This document shows positions 14,378 through 64,000 of a stretch of 64,000 nucleotides of DNA, piece by piece. This DNA is from Flavobacterium silvisoli (GTDB lineage Bacteria; Bacteroidota; Bacteroidia; Flavobacteriales; Flavobacteriaceae), in the NCBI RefSeq assembly GCF_004329815.1, contig NZ_SJPE01000004.1, positions 128,926-192,925 on the forward strand, read 5' to 3'. Below the pieces are notes generated by a model, which saw only the letters and a list, made by a program, of their open reading frames with translations, was not told the DNA's origin and did not search any database. The number at the start of each line of letters is the position of its first letter. Positions within the stretch are counted from its first letter, which is position 1. A program made the translations under genes and the position numbers.

Positions 14378-14410
14378 TTTGCATCGGGAATAAATTTTGT
14401 CGTAATTTTG
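14378..14410 (+). promoter_or_regulatory. Promoter of pabB-tilS-dsbD (TTTG-N21-TAATTTTG)
   Basis: TTTG at 14378-14381 and TAATTTTG at 14403-14410 are 21 bp apart, matching the Bacteroidota consensus. The start codon follows about 20 bp after the -7 box. Confidence 0.55.
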
Positions 14411-29964: not shown

Positions 29965-32574
29965 TTATTCTGTAGTTACTTCTTCGCTTTGATTCCTAAA
30001 CACCAGCTGCCCATCGAAACAGTCGAGCAGGATGATGCTGTCGGTAGTTATTTTGCCGGCCAGAATCTCTTTCGAGAGTTGGTTCAGTACTTCGCGTTGT
30101 ATGATTCGTTTTACCGGACGGGCTCCGTACTGAGGGTCATAGCCTTTGTCGGCCAGGTACTCAATAGCCTCGGGAGTGGCATCCATAGTAATGTTTTGCT
30201 GTGCCAGCATTTTGGTAACACTTTTCAACTGCAGTCCAACAATTTGTTTGATGTTGGCCGAAGTCAGCGGCGTAAACATCACGATTTCATCAATACGATT
30301 AATGAATTCAGGACGTACCGTTTGTTTGAGCAAGCCCAGTACTTCAACCTTAGCCGACTCGGTAGCGGCTTCGAGACTTCCCTTTAAGTTTTCAAACTTC
30401 TCTTGTATAATATGGCTTCCTATGTTAGAAGTCATGATGATAATCGTATTTTTAAAATCGGCTACACGACCTTTGTTATCCGTCAATCGGCCTTCGTCAA
30501 GTACTTGCAGCAAGATGTTAAAGGTATCGGGGTGCGCTTTCTCAATCTCATCAAGCAATACGACCGAATACGGTTTGCGTCTGACGGCTTCGGTTAGTTG
30601 TCCGCCTTCGTCATAACCTACATAACCAGGAGGCGCACCTACCAATCGGCTCACGCTGTGACGCTCCTGATACTCACTCATATCAATGCGAGTCATGGCG
30701 TTTTCATCGTCAAAGAGGTATTCGGCGAGAGCTTTAGCCAACTCGGTTTTACCCACCCCGGTAGTACCTAAGAAAAGGAAAGAACCAATAGGTTTCTTCA
30801 TGTCCTGCAAACCGGCACGGCTACGACGCACAGCATCACTCACGGCTTCTATAGCTTCTTCCTGGCCTACCACGCGGTGGTGAAGAGCATCCTCAAGGTG
30901 CAACAGTTTTTCGCGTTCGCCCTGCAGCATTTTCATTACCGGTATGCCGGTCCATTTGGCTACGACTTCGGCTATGTCTTCGCGGGTTACTTCTTCTTTT
31001 ATAAGAGAAGAACCCGACTGGTTTTCAATCAGTTGCTTCTGTAACACTTCTAAACGTTCCTGAGCTTCTTTGCTTTTACCGTATCTGATTTCGGCTACTT
31101 TACCATAATCACCGTCGCGTTCGGCACGTTCGGCTTCAATTTTAAAGTCTTCTAACTCTTGTTTGACCGCTTGTATGTTATCAACTACATCTTTCTCTGA
31201 TTTCCATTTGGCAAAAATCTCATTGCGTTCCTCTTTCAGGTTGGCGAGGTCTAAGCCCAGACTTTTGAGTTTGGTTTCGTCGTTTTCGCGTTTGATAGCT
31301 TCAATTTCGATTTCGAGCTGCATGATTTTTCTATCCAAAACATCGAGTTCCTCGGGTTTGGAGTTGATTTCCATACGCAGTTTTGAAGCCGCTTCGTCCA
31401 TCAGGTCAATAGCCTTATCGGGCAGAAAACGGTTGGTAATGTAGCGTTGCGACAACTCCACAGCAGCAATAATAGCATCGTCTTTGATGCGTACCTTGTG
31501 ATGGGTTTCGTATTTCTCTTTGATACCGCGCAGAATAGAGATGGCACTTTCGGTATCGGGCTCATCGACCATTACTTTTTGAAAACGACGCTCGAGGGCT
31601 TTGTCTTTCTCGAAGTATTTTTGGTATTCGTCAAGCGTGGTTGCACCAATGGCTCTCAGCTCACCACGAGCTAAAGCAGGTTTCAGTATGTTAGCGGCAT
31701 CCATCGCGCCTTCGCCACCGCCGGCACCAACAAGAGTGTGAATTTCATCAATAAACAGGACGATATCGCCTTCGGCAGAAGTTACTTCTTTTACCACCGA
31801 TTTTAATCGTTCTTCAAACTCTCCTTTGTATTTGGCTCCTGCAATGAGCGCGCCCATATCCAACGAATAGACGATTTTGTCTTTCAGGTTTTCGGGTACG
31901 TCGCCGTCAACAATACGATGGGCGAGGCCTTCGGCAATGGCGGTTTTACCAACACCGGGTTCACCCACCAGCATAGGGTTGTTTTTGGTGCGGCGGGTAA
32001 GGATTTGCAACACGCGTCTAATCTCCTCATCGCGACCAATGACCGGATCGAGTTTGCCGGTTTTGGCCAGTTCGTTTAAGTTCTTAGCATATTTGTTGAG
32101 CGCATTATAAGTTTCCTCAGCCGAGGCCGAAGTTACCCTTTCGCCTTTGCGTATTTCGGCTATGGCCGCTTCCATACCCTTTTCGGTTACGCTTTGATCT
32201 TTCAGGATTTGAGCTACCTTGCTTTTAGACTTGAGTACAGCCAGTAATAAATGTTCGATTGAAATGTATTCGTCTTTCATTTTTTTGGCAATATGCTCTG
32301 CTTCGTTCAGCGTAGCATTGGTTTCCCGCGAAAGCATGATGTTAGCTCCCGATACTTTTGGGAAACTTTGAAGCATACTGTCGAGTACTTTTTTAAATAA
32401 ATCAACATTTACGTTGAGTTTTTTCAGGATGAAAGGCGTTACATTTTCATCTACTTCGAGTATTCCTTTTACAAGGTGTTCGTTCTCGATTTGCTGATGG
32501 CCTAATGCTTGGGCAATGCTTTGTGCCTGTTGTATAGCTTCCTGAGATTTAATGGTTAAATTGTTTATGTTCAT
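29965..32574 (-). CDS. clpB: ATP-dependent chaperone ClpB
   Basis: This 869-residue Hsp100 disaggregase rescues aggregated proteins together with DnaK. It has two Clp_N repeats (about 1-145), a first AAA+ domain with GEPGVGKTA and [20 protein letters not shown] (seen as [11 protein letters not shown]), a full-length coiled-coil M-domain (about 410-525), and a second AAA+ domain with GTTGVGKTE and [11 protein letters not shown]. The full M-domain and lack of a ClpP-docking loop distinguish it from ClpC. Its start is 105 bp from an element also found before dnaK and clpC. Confidence 0.97.
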
Positions 32575-32678: not shown

Positions 32679-32695
32679 GTCAAGATGTATTCCAA
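32679..32695 (-). promoter_or_regulatory. TTGG-N8-TTG-N-C element before clpB
   Basis: On the minus strand TTGGAATACATCTTGAC is 17 bp and matches the elements before dnaK and clpC in length and in TTGG and TTGNC. It ends 104 bp before the clpB start. GG and G are 10 bp apart, as in sigma54 -24/-12 promoters, although the usual GC at -12 is GA here. Confidence 0.5.
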
Positions 32696-32745
32696 TTTAC
32701 AAAACCAGACAAAATGACTGATTTATTAGTGTTTTTCATTTTATT

Positions 32746-32778
32746 TCAAGTCAAAATGTCCTAAATCAAGTCAAAATG
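32746..32778. repeat. Direct repeat TCAAGTCAAAATG before ytxJ
   Basis: Two exact 13-bp copies (32746-32758 and 32766-32778), period 20, with a third CAAAATG at 32710-32716. The second copy includes the ytxJ start codon. The period of about two helical turns would suit a regulator binding as a dimer of dimers. Confidence 0.5.
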
Positions 32779-33265: not shown

Positions 33266-34279
33266 ATGACATTATTTGCTTCCCGGAAATTTTCTCTTTT
33301 CCATGTAGCTATCTTTTCAGTTGTGATTTCTTTAATGGCTTCTGCCGGAATTTATGCCTGGATAAGCCGTAAAGACACTACTACTGTAGCCATCAATTCG
33401 GTCAAAAGGAATTGCGAATACAATATTAAACGAATTTCAGGTTTGAAATTTGTAAAGCCTATTTTATGGGTTGATGAAAACTGCGAGTCGGATGAACTGA
33501 CGGGTACCAAGATTAAGCTAACTGAAATTATTGAAAAGTATAAACAAACCAGCGAGGTCAACACTGCTTCTGTTTACCTGCGTGTAAACGGTAAATGGAC
33601 GGTAATCAATCCGAATGATAAATATGATCCGGGGTCACTGTTCAAAGTTCCGGTACTGATTACCATTTTAAAAATGGAAGAAGAACATCCGGGTTTTTTA
33701 AACATGCCGGTTGTGTATAAAAACAAGGTGGAAACCGGCAAAAACATTGCTTACGCCTCTAAAACCATACAGTTAGGGCAGACCTACACTATTCGAGAAT
33801 TGTTGAATTACATGATCAAATATTCGGATAATGCAGCCACTATTTTGCTGGAAAACAACATGGATAACAAGATATTGCAGAAACTGTTTTCGGATGTAGG
33901 TGTTGAAATTCCTAATATTTATGCCGATAAATACCAGTTTACAGCCAGTGATTATTCACTTTTTATGCGTGTTATTTTCAATGCCGGTTATTTGACCATC
34001 AAAAATTCTGAATTTGCAGCCGAACTTTTGAGCGAATGTGACTTTAAAGAAGGGATTGTAAAAGGGATTCCGGCAGGTACTAAGATTGCTCACAAGTTTG
34101 GAGAATCGGGTGACCAAGTAGAAAAACAACTGCACGAATCAGCAGTAGTATATCTGGATAACGGAGGCGGTTACCTGCTGACGATTATGACTAAAGGAAA
34201 AGACATGAAAAAGCTCTCTAATTTGATAGGTGAAATTTCAAGAGCTGTTTATGATGATGCCACTGTCAATTCAAATTAA
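33266..34279 (+). CDS. Class A beta-lactamase-like serine hydrolase, membrane anchored
   Basis: This 337-residue protein has one N-terminal membrane helix (about residues 12-33) and a periplasmic serine beta-lactamase-fold domain. The SxxK motif is Ser124-L-F-Lys127 in DPGSLFKVPV, the SDN loop is residues 187-189 in IKYSDNAAT, and the KTG box is replaced by KFG at 277-279 (HKFGESGD). A clear omega-loop ExxLN motif is not seen, so true beta-lactamase activity is doubtful; a peptidase or D-Ala-D-Ala processing role is possible. It shares a terminator with the convergent lipoprotein gene. Confidence 0.85.
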   Translation: MTLFASRKFSLFHVAIFSVVISLMASAGIYAWISRKDTTTVAINSVKRNCEYNIKRISGLKFVKPILWVDENCESDELTGTKIKLTEIIEKYKQTSEVNTASVYLRVNGKWTVINPNDKYDPGSLFKVPVLITILKMEEEHPGFLNMPVVYKNKVETGKNIAYASKTIQLGQTYTIRELLNYMIKYSDNAATILLENNMDNKILQKLFSDVGVEIPNIYADKYQFTASDYSLFMRVIFNAGYLTIKNSEFAAELLSECDFKEGIVKGIPAGTKIAHKFGESGDQVEKQLHESAVVYLDNGGGYLLTIMTKGKDMKKLSNLIGEISRAVYDDATVNSN

Positions 34280-45078: not shown

Positions 45079-47622
45079 TTATTTTGTAGGCTTTTCGGCT
45101 TTTTGAATAGTTACGGTCAACTCTTGAGCTGTTTCGTCTAAATCCATGAGGATTTCGTCGCCTGATGCAATTTTAGAAGTAATGATTTCTTCAGCTAAAG
45201 CATCTTCTACATATTTCTGAATGGCTCTTTTTAGCGGACGGGCTCCAAATTGTTTGTCGAAACCTTTGTCTGCAATAAACGCTTTTGCTTTATCGGTAAG
45301 GGTCAATTTGTAACCCAACTCAGCGATACGGGCATATAGTTTTTTCAATTCGATTTCGATGATTAAATCGATATCGTGTTTTTCTAATGCGTTGAATACA
45401 ATTACGTCGTCAATTCGGTTTAAGAATTCAGGAGCAAAAGTTTTTTTCAAAGCATTTTCAATTACACCTTTTGAATGTTCATCTGCTTGTGCTACTTTGG
45501 CCGAAGTTCCAAAACCTACACCTTGACCGAAGTCTTTCAACTGACGAGCACCTACATTTGAGGTCATGATGATTATGGTGTTTTTGAAATCGATTTTTCT
45601 TCCCAAACTATCCGTCAGATAACCGTCATCTAATACCTGCAACATCATATTGAATACGTCAGGGTGGGCTTTCTCAATCTCATCTAACAGTACTACACAA
45701 TAAGGTTTTCTGCGTACTTTTTCGGTCAATTGACCGCCTTCTTCATATCCTACATAACCCGGAGGTGCACCAATCAATCTTGATATGGCAAATTTCTCCA
45801 TGTATTCGCTCATGTCAATGCGGATAAGGGCATCTTCTGAGTCAAATAGTTCTTTGGCTAAAACTTTGGCTAACTGTGTTTTACCAACGCCTGTTTGACC
45901 TAAAAATATAAATGAACCAATAGGTCGGTTAGGGTCTTTCAATCCGGCGCGATTGCGTTGAATTGAACGGGCTATTTTGAGTACGGCTTCATCTTGACCA
46001 ATTACTTTTCCTTTAATCAGTTCTGGTAAATGAGCCAGTTTGTTGCTTTCGGTTTGAGCAATACGATTTACCGGAATTCCGGTCATCATCGAAACTACAT
46101 CGGCAACATTGTCTTCGGTTACTCTGATTCGGTTACTTTTAGATTCTTCTTCCCATTGTTCTTGAGCTATGGCTAAATCTTTTTCCAGACGTTTTTCATC
46201 ATCACGCAATTTAGCCGCTTCTTCATATTTCTGTTTTTTAACTACAGAATTTTTAAGTTCGCGGACTTCCTCCAGTTGGCGTTCCAAATCCAGGATTTGT
46301 TTCGGTACATCAATATTAGTAATGTGAACACGGGAACCGGCTTCATCCATAGCATCAATTGCTTTGTCCGGTAGGAAACGCTCCGACATGTAGCGGTTGG
46401 TTAATTTCACACACGCTTCAATCGCTTCCGGAGTGTAAATTACATTATGATGGTCTTCGTATTTGTTTTTGATGTTGTTCAAAATAGTAATGGTTTCTTC
46501 TACCGAAGTAGGTTCTACAATTACTTTTTGAAAACGTCTTTCCAAAGCGCCGTCTTTTTCTATGTACTGTCTGTACTCGTCCAAAGTTGTAGCGCCAATA
46601 CATTGTATTTCGCCACGGGCTAAGGCAGGTTTAAACATATTAGAGGCATCCAAAGATCCTGTAGCACCACCGGCACCTACAATCGTGTGGATCTCGTCTA
46701 TAAACAGTATGATATCATCGTTTTTCTCCAGTTCATTCATTACGGCTTTCATACGCTCCTCAAATTGTCCGCGGTATTTAGTACCGGCCACTAAAGAAGC
46801 CAAATCAAGGGTAACGACTCTTTTGTTGAAAAGAATACGCGATACTTTCTTTTGTATGATTCGAAGGGCTAAACCTTCGGCTATGGCTGATTTACCCACA
46901 CCCGGTTCTCCAATAAGTAACGGATTGTTTTTCTTTCTGCGGCTCAAAATTTGAGAAACACGTTCAATTTCTTTCTCGCGTCCCACTACCGGGTCGAGTT
47001 TGCCTTCTTCAGCTAATTCGGTTAAATCGCGACCAAAGTTATCCAAAACCGGAGTTTTTGATTTCTTGTTCGTTTTACTGCCCGGATTGTTGAAGCTGCC
47101 TTCTTTTAAACTGTCATCTTGACCTGAATCGTCATTATAAGACTCGTTTCGTGGCAGATTGTCCATAAAATCTTCTTCGTTCGGTGTCATATTTAAATAT
47201 TGTTCTTTGACCACATTATAGTCTATTTTTAGCCTATGCAGCAGTTTGGTTGTAGGATCGTTTTCATTTCTTAATATGCACAAAAGTAAATGGGCTGTAC
47301 TGATTGAAGTGGCCTGAAATACCTTGGCTTCTAAGAAGGTTGTTTTTAAAGCGCGTTCCGCTTGACGGGTCAGGTGCAGATTTTTCTTTTCGTTGCTTAT
47401 CTCTACATTCGGATTGGCAGGACTCAGGACCTCTACCTTTTTGCGCAAATGTTCCAAATCAATAGATAAGTTATTTAAAATAGCAATCGCTTTACCATTT
47501 CCATCTCTCAAGATACCAAGCATCAGATGCTCAGTTCCAATAAAGTCGTGGCCCAATCGTAGTGCCTCTTCTTTGCTGTAAGTGATTACATCTTTGACTC
47601 TTGGTGAAAAATTATCATCCAT
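45079..47622 (-). CDS. clpC: ATP-dependent Clp protease ATP-binding subunit ClpC
   Basis: This 847-residue Hsp100 unfoldase feeds substrates to ClpP. It has two Clp_N repeats (MDDNFSPRVKDVITYSKEEA start, GHDFIGTEHLMLGIL), a first AAA+ domain with GEPGVGKSA and IDEIHTIVGAGGATG, a short UVR-containing middle (YEEAAKLRDDEKRLE), and a second AAA+ domain with GQTGVGKTQ and [10 protein letters not shown]. The short middle domain with a UVR motif distinguishes it from ClpB. Divergent from gyrA. An element shared with clpB and dnaK lies 86 bp upstream. Confidence 0.96.
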   Translation of the reverse strand: MDDNFSPRVKDVITYSKEEALRLGHDFIGTEHLMLGILRDGNGKAIAILNNLSIDLEHLRKKVEVLSPANPNVEISNEKKNLHLTRQAERALKTTFLEAKVFQATSISTAHLLLCILRNENDPTTKLLHRLKIDYNVVKEQYLNMTPNEEDFMDNLPRNESYNDDSGQDDSLKEGSFNNPGSKTNKKSKTPVLDNFGRDLTELAEEGKLDPVVGREKEIERVSQILSRRKKNNPLLIGEPGVGKSAIAEGLALRIIQKKVSRILFNKRVVTLDLASLVAGTKYRGQFEERMKAVMNELEKNDDIILFIDEIHTIVGAGGATGSLDASNMFKPALARGEIQCIGATTLDEYRQYIEKDGALERRFQKVIVEPTSVEETITILNNIKNKYEDHHNVIYTPEAIEACVKLTNRYMSERFLPDKAIDAMDEAGSRVHITNIDVPKQILDLERQLEEVRELKNSVVKKQKYEEAAKLRDDEKRLEKDLAIAQEQWEEESKSNRIRVTEDNVADVVSMMTGIPVNRIAQTESNKLAHLPELIKGKVIGQDEAVLKIARSIQRNRAGLKDPNRPIGSFIFLGQTGVGKTQLAKVLAKELFDSEDALIRIDMSEYMEKFAISRLIGAPPGYVGYEEGGQLTEKVRRKPYCVVLLDEIEKAHPDVFNMMLQVLDDGYLTDSLGRKIDFKNTIIIMTSNVGARQLKDFGQGVGFGTSAKVAQADEHSKGVIENALKKTFAPEFLNRIDDVIVFNALEKHDIDLIIEIELKKLYARIAELGYKLTLTDKAKAFIADKGFDKQFGARPLKRAIQKYVEDALAEEIITSKIASGDEILMDLDETAQELTVTIQKAEKPTK

Positions 47623-47708
47623 AATAGTATGTGATTTGTATTGTAAATTTAGTTATAATGGGACGTTAATGCAAAAATCATTCCCGCTAAATGTACTGTC
47701 AGCTAATT

Positions 47709-47725
47709 GACAAAAAAAAAGCCAA
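47709..47725 (-). promoter_or_regulatory. TTGG-N8-TTG-N-C element before clpC
   Basis: On the minus strand TTGGCTTTTTTTTTGTC is 17 bp, with TTGGC and TTGTC exactly as before dnaK (62582-62598). It ends 86 bp before the clpC start. The middle is a T-run, so the information content is lower here. Confidence 0.5.
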
Positions 47726-60563: not shown

Positions 60564-62525
60564 ATGTCTTTGAGCCGTTTCGTTATTGTATGTTACCTTT
60601 TGTTTTCGGGAGTTCTTTGGGCTCAAAATGAAAATGCGACCGTAAAAGATTCTGTGAAAGAAAATAAGTTGGAGGAAGTCATAGTAACTTCTTCCCGCAC
60701 CAATTCTCGTATAGAAAACACCCCCACACGCGTTGAAGTTTTGGGATTGGAGGAAATGAATGAAGAAAACAATATTAAACCCGGGAACATCATGAGTCTT
60801 TTGGGGGATATTGCCGGAATTCAAATGCAGCAAATGTCCGCCAGCACCGGAAATACTTTGGCCAGAATACAAGGACTTCACGGGCGATATACACAATTAT
60901 TAAAAGACGGCATGCCTTTATATGGAGGGCTTTCGGGCAACTTTGGGATTATGCAGATTCCCCCTATGGATTTAAAACAAATTGAGATTATCAAAGGATC
61001 GGCGTCAACACTGTATGGTGGCGATGCTATCGGAGGAATAATCAATTTGATTAGCAAAAATCCCGACTTTAAGAGGGAACTCAGTTTTACAGCAAATCAA
61101 ACATCGCTTTCTGAAACTAATTTGAACGGGTATTTTTCAAAACGAAATAAAAAATTTGGGTTTACATGTTTTATCGGGCAAACATTTCAGCATCATTTAG
61201 ATATAGATGACGATGGATTGACTGATGTGGCAAAAGTGAACAATACAGTAATACATCCTAAATTCATTTTTTATCTTTCTCCTGCGTCTACTGTGACAGT
61301 AAATTATTCGGCGACTTTTGATGCCCGAAAAGGAGGGGATAATCGATATTTTGCGCATTATGACAGCAACTTATATCATATTGTTACTCAAATGCAACGG
61401 CACAGCCTTGATGCCAAATGGCAATACAATTTGTCTGAGAAAAGTAATCTAATGTTCAAAACCAGCAGCAGTTTTTTAGACCAAAAGTTGGATACTAAAG
61501 CCTATGTTTTCAGCGGAAAACAAACACTGTTGTATGCTGAAGCTTCCTATTTTCATAAATCAGAGAAAATGGATTGGGTAGCGGGAATTAATTGTAATGG
61601 TGACTTTTTTACAGATAATTCATCACAGATATTGCCTTTGGTTTCTGATTACCACAATACAACTTTGGGAACATTTGTACAAAACACTTATAAACCAACA
61701 AAAAAATGGGTTTTGGAAAGTGGATTTCGATATGATTTCAATTCCAAATACGGCAATTTTGCACTGCCAAGACTTTCACTATTGTACAAAATCAATGCTG
61801 ATTTTTCGACACGGTTGAATGGCGGATTTGGTTACAAATCACCGGTAGCGCTTAATTATCTTGATTTAGAAACCGATTTGGCAAATACAAATAACAATAA
61901 TTCATTAAAAGCGGAATGGTCACGCGGATGGAATGCCGATGTGAACTACAAAAAACGATTGGGTAATAATATGAGTATTACTTTTAATCAGTCTTTTTTT
62001 TATACCCTGATTAAAAATCCTATTTACGACAGTTCAGCAACAGCTGGACAAACCGCATTGCAAAATGCTTCTAATTCACTAGTTACAAGAGGATTTCAGT
62101 CTTATTGTCGACTCGAACACGATGATTTTGAGTTGTACTTGGGCTATGTGTTTACCGATGTGCAAAAAGAATACGATACCCTTCACAAAAGTTTGACAGT
62201 TACTCCGAAGCATAATTTTTCTTCGACGCTGTTTTATGAGCCTTCAGAAACCTGGCGTTTTGGTCTAGAGAGCAGTCTCATTGCCAGCCAACTGGATCAA
62301 AATTACCAACCGGTAAAAAATTATGTATTGGCAGCGGCTATGCTGCAGTATAAATGGAGTCATTTTACAATGGTGCTTAACATTGAAAATCTGTTCGATT
62401 TCAAGCAAAGTAATTATGGTAAAATTTATTCAGGTACCATTGACAATCCGAAATTCGACAAGCTTTGGGCGCCAATTGACGGTCGTGTATTTAATTTTTC
62501 GATAAAGTATTCACTCCAACAATAG
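60564..62525 (+). CDS. TonB-dependent outer-membrane receptor
   Basis: The ATG at 60564 gives a signal peptide (FVIVCYLLFSGVLWAQ); a TTG at 60495 falls inside the rho terminator and is rejected. The 653-residue protein has a TonB box-like LEEVIVTSSR, a plug domain (about 50-170: RIQGLHGRYTQLLKDGMPLYGG, seen as QGLHGRYTQLLKDGMP; IEIIKGSASTLYGGDAIGGIIN, seen as IKGSASTLYGGDAIGG) and a 22-strand-type barrel ending with a phenylalanine-rich FNFSIKYSLQQ. The short size and plug resemble BtuB- or siderophore-type receptors. The substrate is unknown. No SusD partner is adjacent, which argues against a glycan system. Confidence 0.92.
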   Translation: MSLSRFVIVCYLLFSGVLWAQNENATVKDSVKENKLEEVIVTSSRTNSRIENTPTRVEVLGLEEMNEENNIKPGNIMSLLGDIAGIQMQQMSASTGNTLARIQGLHGRYTQLLKDGMPLYGGLSGNFGIMQIPPMDLKQIEIIKGSASTLYGGDAIGGIINLISKNPDFKRELSFTANQTSLSETNLNGYFSKRNKKFGFTCFIGQTFQHHLDIDDDGLTDVAKVNNTVIHPKFIFYLSPASTVTVNYSATFDARKGGDNRYFAHYDSNLYHIVTQMQRHSLDAKWQYNLSEKSNLMFKTSSSFLDQKLDTKAYVFSGKQTLLYAEASYFHKSEKMDWVAGINCNGDFFTDNSSQILPLVSDYHNTTLGTFVQNTYKPTKKWVLESGFRYDFNSKYGNFALPRLSLLYKINADFSTRLNGGFGYKSPVALNYLDLETDLANTNNNNSLKAEWSRGWNADVNYKKRLGNNMSITFNQSFFYTLIKNPIYDSSATAGQTALQNASNSLVTRGFQSYCRLEHDDFELYLGYVFTDVQKEYDTLHKSLTVTPKHNFSSTLFYEPSETWRFGLESSLIASQLDQNYQPVKNYVLAAAMLQYKWSHFTMVLNIENLFDFKQSNYGKIYSGTIDNPKFDKLWAPIDGRVFNFSIKYSLQQ

Positions 62526-62532
62526 TGTCATC

Positions 62533-62563
62533 TTGTCAGCCTGATTTAGTCTGAAACTGACAA
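62533..62563. repeat. Inverted repeat TTGTCAG / CTGACAA before dnaK
   Basis: Two 7-bp arms (62533-62539 and 62557-62563) lie just after the TonB receptor stop and 18 bp before the dnaK element. It may be an upstream binding site or a weak terminator; there is no long T-run. Confidence 0.4.
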
Positions 62564-62581: not shown

Positions 62582-62598
62582 TTGGCATAATAGTTGTC
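62582..62598 (+). promoter_or_regulatory. TTGG-N8-TTG-N-C element before dnaK
   Basis: TTGGCATAATAGTTGTC is 17 bp and shares TTGG and TTGNC with the elements before clpC and clpB. GG and GT are 10 bp apart, as between the -24 GG and -12 GC of sigma54 promoters. It ends 81 bp before the dnaK ATG. No CIRCE element or E. coli-type sigma32 promoter was seen. Confidence 0.55.
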
Positions 62599-62679: not shown

Positions 62680-64000
62680 ATGAGTAAAATTATTGGTATC
62701 GATTTAGGTACAACCAATTCATGTGTAGCAGTTATGGAAGGCGGAGAGCCGGTAGTAATCGCAAACGCTGAAGGAAAAAGAACAACCCCTTCTGTAATTG
62801 CATTTGTAGAAGGCGGCGAAATTAAAGTAGGTGACCCTGCAAAACGTCAGGCGGTTACCAACCCTACCAAAACCATTGCGTCTATTAAACGTTTTATGGG
62901 AAATAAGTATACAGAAAGTGCTAAAGAAGCCTCTACTGTAGCTTACAAAGTGGTAAAAGGAGATAACGACACCCCACGTGTTGATATCGACGGAAGATTA
63001 TATACACCACAAGAGTTGTCAGCCATGACACTTCAAAAAATGAAAAAAACTGCAGAAGACTATTTAGGTCATGCCGTTACCGAAGCCGTAATCACTGTTC
63101 CGGCTTACTTTAACGATGCGCAACGTCAGGCTACTAAAGAAGCCGGTGAAATTGCAGGTCTTAAAGTAATGCGTATCATTAATGAGCCTACAGCAGCAGC
63201 TTTGGCTTACGGATTAGACAAATCAGGTAAAGACCAAAAAATTGCCGTTTACGATTTAGGTGGAGGTACTTTTGATATCTCAGTATTGGAATTAGGAGAC
63301 GGTGTTTTTGAAGTATTGTCAACCAACGGAGATACTCACTTAGGAGGAGATGACTTTGACCAGGTAATCATCGACTGGATGGCTAACGAATTCAACAGCG
63401 AAGAAGGTGTTGATTTGCGCAAAGACCCAATGGCATTGCAACGTTTGAAAGAAGCTGCTGAGAAAGCAAAAATCGAGTTGTCTTCCTCAACACAAACCGA
63501 AATTAACTTGCCATATGTTACCGCTACCGCTTCAGGTCCGAAACACTTGGTAAAAACGTTAACTCGTGCCAAATTCGAGCAATTGGCTGAAAGCTTGGTA
63601 AAACGTTCTATGGAACCTGTTGCCAAAGCCTTGAAAGATGCCGGTTTATCTACTTCAGATATCGATGAAGTAATCTTGGTAGGAGGATCAACCCGTATTC
63701 CGGTAATCCAAGAGCAAGTAGAAAAATTCTTTGGTAAAAAACCATCAAAAGGGGTGAACCCGGACGAAGTAGTAGCTATTGGTGCGGCTATCCAAGGTGG
63801 TGTTTTAACCGGAGATGTGAAAGATGTATTGCTGCTTGACGTTACCCCGCTATCATTAGGAATCGAAACCATGGGTAACGTAATGACAAAATTAATCGAA
63901 GCCAACACTACCATTCCTACCAAAAAATCACAAGTATTCTCAACAGCAGCCGATAACCAGCCAAGTGTTGAAATCCATGTATTGCAGGGGGAAAGAACCA
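62680..64000 (+). CDS. dnaK: Molecular chaperone DnaK, partial
   Basis: The gene starts at ATG 62680 ([21 protein letters not shown]) and runs off the right edge after 440 codons, so only the ATPase domain and the start of the substrate-binding domain are seen. Hsp70 signatures are [43 protein letters not shown] and [17 protein letters not shown], and the linker is [16 protein letters not shown]. Length and order match bacterial DnaK. It acts with ClpB (29965-32574) in disaggregation. A regulatory element shared with clpB and clpC lies upstream. An A-rich/GGAG-like stretch before the ATG (AAAAAAGGAGATAAAG) could serve as ribosome-binding site. Confidence 0.97.

Follow-up and report, generated by a model that had tools for sequence, protein, structure and literature searches.

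What switches on the chaperone genes of a Flavobacterium, in a phylum—the Bacteroidota—whose members, to our knowledge, usually lack sigma-32? We analysed a window of 64,000 nucleotides of the draft genome of Flavobacterium silvisoli (2.89 Mb, 39 contigs), in which Pfam domains identify one Hsp70 gene and two AAA+ genes of the ClpB/ClpC type: dnaK (62680–63999, forward strand, running off the window; PF00012, E 1.6e-93 over the first 200 amino acids), clpB (29965–32574, reverse strand; domains including ClpB_D2-small and Clp_N), and clpC (45079–47622, reverse strand; domains including Clp_N and UVR). A first-pass annotation had described these as the only Hsp70/Hsp100 genes present; Pfam bears out all three, and no further one appeared among 20 other large open reading frames scanned. 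It had also placed a 17-bp element of the form TTGG-N8-TTG-N-C before each of them, namely TTGGCATAATAGTTGTC at 62582–62598 (forward), TTGGAATACATCTTGAC at 32679–32695 (reverse), and TTGGCTTTTTTTTTGTC at 47709–47725 (reverse), ending 81, 104, and 86 bp ahead of the ATG of dnaK, clpB, and clpC, respectively. These positions and distances are accurate; the question is whether the element is shared, and what reads it.

Counting matches does little to answer this. The pattern had been expected once or twice by chance in the window, an estimate that proves too low: 3.26 matches are expected and nine are found (a number reached by one of 100 shuffles), and the six other than the three above fall within open reading frames. 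Since the pattern count alone is weak, conservation in related genomes and position were taken as evidence instead. The genus set was drawn from 41 genomes, with loci taken as the best 30 of 41 for each gene; the dnaK loci include our own, 25 of the 30 groES loci were usable (L257, L258, L260, L265, and L266 lacked a recognised start), as were 29 of the 30 clpB loci (L047 yielded no upstream sequence). The phylum set comprised 72 hand-picked genomes, about one per family, from 70 of which dnaK was recovered. The named set held 80 dnaK loci, one of them titled Chlorobiota; being the best of at least 588 matches, it is biased towards close relatives. Additionally, the window was scored with four promoter matrices, all built from other genomes, one of them from groES and lon only and one from five genes.

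The dnaK and clpB elements are real, conserved sigma-54 promoters of the -24/-12 type with a loose -12 base. In the dnaK copy, GG occupies 62584–62585 and is followed, after 10 bp, by G; both copies carry GG at -25/-24 and G at -13 with this spacing. Position 62582 ranks first among all window positions on both strands with every one of the four matrices, and even the groES and lon matrix, which is blind to dnaK, scores it at 16.3 bits against 14.4 for the runner-up. The form NNGGCA-N6-TTG lies ahead of dnaK in all 30 genus loci (the best 30 of 41), most commonly as TTGGCACAAAGATTGAC. In the named set the site precedes dnaK at 75 of the 80 loci (the best 80 of at least 588), with a median distance of 65 bp from GG to ATG; the opposite strand and the reversed sequence of the same 80 loci each gave 0/80. 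The five misses are three Chryseobacterium loci, one Flavobacteriales MAG, and the reduced symbiont Karelsulcia, whose dnaK upstream sequence (L425) is without the site. The three Chryseobacterium loci (L402, L412, and L415) carry sequences resembling TGGTACAAATATTGA, together with TGTCAATTTGTCA; in these the -24 element is of a GGTA type.

Across the phylum, NNGGMAYN5YTG occurs within 250 bp upstream of dnaK in 41 of 70 genomes (shuffles: mean 2.0, largest 6), and the strict promoter form in 40 of 70; near-canonical copies in other families include CTGGCACGGTGGTTGCAC (L168) and ATGGCACGATGGTTGCAG (L240). Among the 30 upstream sequences without the strict form, 17 contain an hsp20-like C-terminal peptide motif, as recognised by a loose text pattern, so the promoter of these 17 dnaK genes may lie further out, before an hsp20 gene. 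As for the sigma factor itself, our genome encodes one RpoN with all three Pfam domains, and of 296 genomes sampled from the phylum 295 gave an RpoN match. The sole genome without a match, G334, has no strict site upstream of dnaK (L177); it is no natural test of RpoN absence, because the activator query matches it twice and its dnaK upstream sequence contains an hsp20-like motif.

For clpB, GGAA-N6-TTG precedes the gene in 27 of 29 genus loci (from the best 30 of 41 genomes, L047 left out), and the promoter was found again by a pattern search of the 41 genomes. The two misses are L048, which is cut at a contig end, and L052. With the groES and lon matrix the clpB copy comes only 12th in the window, near the clpC 17-mer at 16th. 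The gene of a beta-lactamase-family protein (PF13354) occupies 33266–34279, some 0.7 kb away from the start of clpB.

The clpC copy is a coincidence, and the claim of a common element thus stands for dnaK (30/30) and clpB (27/29) and falls at the third gene. Over 30 genus loci only its 3' TTTTGTC is conserved, as the left half of an inverted repeat, TGTCA-ATTAGC-TGACA (47697–47712, reverse), that is itself conserved in much of the genus; relatives keep TTTTTTTGTCAATTAGCTGACA or near variants, of which TTGTC forms part of the first repeat half. The 17-mer ranks between 16th and 38th in the window across the four matrices, and its assignment as a member promoter was rejected. More likely as the -24/-12 site of clpC is CGGGAATGATTTTTGCA at 47670–47686 (reverse), with GG-N10-GC. 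This GGAATGATTTTTG(C/T) site lies 39 bp downstream of the 17-mer, and its place is held by GG-N-A-N6-TTG in all 30 genus loci, as also by the looser GG-N10-G (30/30). It ranks third in the window with the matrix that includes the relatives' clpC sites and outside the top twelve without them, which makes it less certain.

The same layout extends to other genes. Counted together, a GG-N10-G site stands in 142 of 144 genus upstream sequences of five genes (the best 30 of 41 genomes each): dnaK 30/30, groES 25/25, lon 30/30, clpB 27/29, and, with the looser pattern, clpC 30/30. In groES it takes the form GGCA-N6-(C/T)TG in 25 of 25 relatives (TGGCAYAATTTCTGA), and in lon GGCA-N6-TTG at 30 of 30 loci (the best 30 of 41). 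Searched over the whole genome, TTGGCAYANNNNTTGNC has two exact matches, before dnaK and lon; with one mismatch allowed, the core pattern is found 63 times and its reversed control 43 times, which leaves discriminating power to exact matches alone. The final C of the 17-bp pattern, in contrast to its first description, is not general in the genus (dnaK 25/30, clpB 11/27, groES 6/25, clpC site 0/30). The canonical C at -12 is missing here, being T in the dnaK copy and A in the clpB copy; the base after TTG is A in 76, T in 47, and C in 19 of the 142 genus sites, and C at -12 is rare also among the phylum dnaK sites (5 of 40) and the named loci (6 of 75). Because of this missing C, the promoters are classed as a variant of the sigma-54 type.

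Several further sites were noted. Ranked fourth with the five-gene matrix, a window match at 14385 (forward) lies ahead of the gene of a chorismate-binding enzyme. At lon (contig C38 of our genome, L100, and L319–L348) the sigma-54-type promoter lies far upstream, an AATGWCA-N3-WGWC block stands ahead of the start codon in 23 of 30 loci, and the copies examined have a TAnnTTTG-like sequence between the two; lon may be served by two promoters, an operator separating them from the gene. Elsewhere in our genome, TTGGCACATGTATTGAA (L117; contig C3, 23844–23860), with CTGACA and TGACA upstream, lies 75 bp ahead of the gene of a small secreted protein and is a possible further member. In a relative, a companion site of the kind described below and a promoter (L129; G038, contig C22, 531337–531372) stand 24 bp before the gene of a protein whose start resembles a signal peptide.

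This promoter class has been published before, and dnaK and clpB here are a further case of it. According to the accessible part of a study of Flavobacterium psychrophilum, its motif SM4, of the -24/-12 type, has mapped 5' ends at groESL, lon, dnaK, grpE-dnaJ, htpG, and clpB (PMC9723704)—the same type, and for dnaK, clpB, groESL, and lon the same genes, as in our analysis. That agreement supports the earlier suggestion of a sigma-54-like element with a relaxed -12 for dnaK and clpB, as does the motif search upstream of orthologues that had been proposed as its check. SM4 is not confined to heat-shock genes, since genes for gliding motility and for exported proteins belong to it as well, and clpC is absent from the printed selection of its genes (PMC9723704, accessible part). 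A matrix survey from 2025, as far as its accessible text goes, finds the chaperone and protease groups DnaK, GroEL/ES, GrpE, COG0542, and COG0466 enriched among predicted sigma-54 targets, most strongly in Flavobacteriia, and lists grpE and groES of B. thetaiotaomicron and grpE of F. psychrophilum as sigma-54-dependent (PMC12316311).

Other readings of the promoter fare poorly against these data. It is very improbable that dnaK is served by a primary-sigma (TAnnTTTG) or other promoter of the sigma-70 family, with TTGG...TTG as an upstream box. In F. psychrophilum, -7 boxes read TAnnTTTG and one promoter class is of the TAnnTTGY form (PMC9723704), and our dnaK copy contains TA-N4-TTG; however, this spacing matches neither box, most relatives have no TA at that place (GGCACAAAGATTGAC), and the GG-N10-G layout recurs in nearly all genus upstream sequences of the five genes (142/144; the best 30 of 41 genomes for each), so a primary-sigma or TAnnTTGY promoter for dnaK was rejected. 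HrcA, acting at a CIRCE operator, commonly controls dnaK and groESL in other phyla. Such control is here improbable in the extreme and was also rejected: the best matches to CIRCE (TTAGCACTC-N9-GAGTGCTAA) have 6 of 18 positions wrong in 27 genus dnaK upstream sequences (L017, L019, and L020 left out) and 7 wrong in 25 of groES, which makes at least 6 and at least 7 mismatches. A chance likeness of three sequences would fit the six coding matches among the nine in the window and does account for the clpC copy. Set against the 75 of 80 named dnaK loci (the best of at least 588) with controls at 0, and the 27 of 29 clpB loci, the odds of it are negligible; for dnaK and clpB chance is excluded by conservation.

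Sigma-54 promoters open only through the action of an ATP-driven enhancer-binding protein, and a second conserved sequence suggests where such a protein may bind. Upstream of dnaK, GTCATCTTGTC (62527–62537, forward), of the form GWCA-N3-TGWC, follows closely on the preceding TonB-receptor reading frame, which ends at 62525, and is centred 52 bp upstream of GG; a half-site TGACA (62558–62562, forward) is placed as it would be in a companion site whose centre lay 20 bp ahead of GG, and TGACA begins 26 or 27 bp upstream of GG in 23 of 30 genus dnaK upstream sequences (the best 30 of 41). Upstream of clpB, both positions hold full sites: GTCATTTTGTC (32708–32718, reverse), centred 20 bp upstream of GG, and GACATTTTGAC (32750–32760, reverse), centred 62 bp upstream, with offsets of -20 or -21 in 20 genus sites and of -62 or -63 in 15, respectively. 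GWCA-N3-TGWC is present in 28 of 30 dnaK and 22 of 28 clpB genus upstream sequences (the best 30 of 41), where dinucleotide shuffles average 0.2, and in 24 of 70 phylum dnaK upstream sequences (0.8 in shuffles). Palindrome-like, upstream, and recurring at both promoters, it has the features of an enhancer site, but not at every member promoter: the full site was found in 0 of 25 groES and 1 of 30 clpC genus upstream sequences, and upstream of the lon start in 12 of 30 by the strict and 25 of 30 by the relaxed pattern. At groES, dnaK, and clpC there are also half-sites aligned with the -20 position. A search of the 41 genomes for GTCA-N3-TGWC followed at 10–40 bp by TGGMAY-N5-TTG returned 20 matches against 3 for the reversed control; by position, 16 lie before clpB, 2 before dnaK, 1 before the secreted protein of L129, and 1 at L148.

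The distances between the companion site and the promoter are not arbitrary. From site centre to GG they are 20, 31, 41, 52, 62, and 83 bp in the genus, and 20, 21, 30–32, 51, 62, 70, 73, 84, 103, and 144 bp in the phylum, where one site lies downstream. It was the genus set that drew attention to the period; tested afterwards on the phylum set, periods from 8 to 13 bp gave their best fit at 10.5 bp. With adjacent offsets merged, the phylum set gives R 0.83 (p 0.0001, eight classes), or R 0.79 (p 0.0003) when the far offset is added; the named set gives R 0.73 (p 0.0008), the two tests being not fully independent because the sets may share species. Of the phylum sites, 19 of 21 deviate from phase by no more than 1.5 bp (the exceptions are -144 and -70), as do 44 of 47 sites in the named set (the exceptions are -81, -78, and -70). 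The distances thus step by one helical turn, which keeps the companion site nearly always on the same face of the DNA—an arrangement that, on sequence grounds, would be what an activator contacting the polymerase from one side of the helix needs. The companion site may accordingly be bound by a dedicated activator of chaperone genes. Among the papers listed in searches of open-licence full texts, we found none that describes the companion site, its phasing, or this activator at chaperone genes of Bacteroidota. The description of SM4, in its accessible text, gives none of the three (PMC9723704), and the 2025 survey, also as far as accessible, works at the level of COGs and names no companion site or activator for chaperone genes (PMC12316311).

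Which protein might this be? The F. psychrophilum study, in its accessible part, counts three activator-domain proteins and leaves the activators open (PMC9723704). A search of our genome with the Pfam sigma-54 activator domain gave seven matches; judged by sequence and position, three of these fall within clpB and clpC and two in other AAA+ proteins, which leaves two true activators. One of the two activators (L092; contig C37, 46689–47189) joins a receiver to an AAA+ domain, has GAFTSA instead of GAFTGA, and shows no Pfam match to a helix-turn-helix or other DNA-binding domain. The other, of 420 amino acids, starts directly with the AAA+ domain, carries GAFTGA, ends in a Fis-type helix-turn-helix, and has no sensor domain. 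It is the only enhancer-binding protein with a DNA-binding domain found in the genome and so, by elimination, the foremost candidate for the companion site; that it acts at chaperone promoters is what we infer from this.

Its gene lies in a cluster with groESL. On one strand the order runs miaB, activator, lptE, a small gene, secG, groES, groEL. In 11 of 40 regions compared, groES lies downstream of the activator on its strand; all 11 belong to the 18 regions from the class of our genome (our own included), and none to the 22 from outside it. The best activator matches end in a helix-turn-helix with RTLYRK in all 40 genomes; this string is common in Fis-type helix-turn-helix domains. These are the best AAA+ matches, so their orthology in distant families is not proven, and the absence of a sensor outside our genome was judged from open-frame lengths. 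The loop reads GSFTGA in 14 of the 40, GAFTGA in 13, GAYTGA in 8, and otherwise in 5. Between the two domains lies a helix-like stretch (ERDILYKVLFDMKSDLNDLKKL in our genome), recognisable in most of the 40 (L279–L318) and flanked by two variable linkers; it is a possible control or dimer element. PspF-like enhancer-binding proteins have the same plan of an AAA+ and a DNA-binding domain without a sensor; the partly conserved stretch between the domains sets the 420-residue protein apart from them.

Taken together, we consider it highly probable that the dnaK and clpB elements are sigma-54 promoters, with a sensorless activator at the phased companion site as the likely means of opening them. 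RNA polymerase with sigma-54 (RpoN) would read 62582–62598 and 32679–32695, where the -12 base would be free and mostly A or T. The activator would bind the 11-bp GWCA-N3-TGWC, about 20, 31, 41, 52, 62, 73, or 83 bp from GG, and would be the AAA+/Fis-type protein of the miaB-lptE-secG-groES-groEL cluster; induction would presumably follow heat or protein damage. A different division of labour, which we regard as unlikely though well ahead of the promoter alternatives, would keep the sigma-54 promoter and make GWCA-N3-TGWC a repressor site or other operator, with another protein, such as a receiver-type activator working from solution, opening the promoter. The receiver-type L092 is present without a helix-turn-helix match, activators without enhancer-binding domains have been described for Bacteroidetes (PMC3372290, accessible part), and at lon a repressor could sit at the related block just before the start codon, after the TAnnTTTG-like sequence. 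However, phasing of 10.5 bp over about six turns fits an activator in contact with polymerase better than a repressor, and the companion site resembles in shape the sites of two sigma-54 activators, NorR (PMC1274295) and FleQ (PMC6120874), as given in the accessible parts of those reports.

We put this resemblance forward as a likeness, with no claim of homology. NorR sites, in the accessible description, are tandem inverted repeats with a GT-N7-AC core upstream of sigma-54 promoters, but serve nitric oxide genes (PMC1274295), and NorR has a regulatory GAF domain, unlike the sensorless candidate (PMC2941729, accessible part). The clpC inverted repeat shares its half-sites, and the 6 bp between them, with the FleQ consensus GTCaNTAAAtTGAC; FleQ acts at flagella and biofilm genes of Pseudomonas, and its consensus is described as unreliable genome-wide (PMC6120874, accessible part).

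Chaperone induction in the Bacteroidota is thinly described in the searchable literature. A promoter class known for one Flavobacterium is now joined by a dnaK site found in many families of the phylum, and matrices that require GC may easily overlook such promoters on account of their loose -12 base. More broadly, we suggest—tentatively, at slightly under an even chance—that the core chaperone response of the Bacteroidota relies on sigma-54 and one dedicated sensorless activator that reads phased GWCA-N3-TGWC sites. If so, the activator would be encoded together with groESL in many members of the class, and for some companion sites the distance to the -24 element would be no more than two helical turns; enhancers seldom sit as close as about 45 bp to the start point. 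The switch would then be chaperone availability itself, or the partly conserved stretch between the two domains of the activator. With a phased companion site and one plausible activator in hand, the chaperone regulator of the phylum becomes testable.
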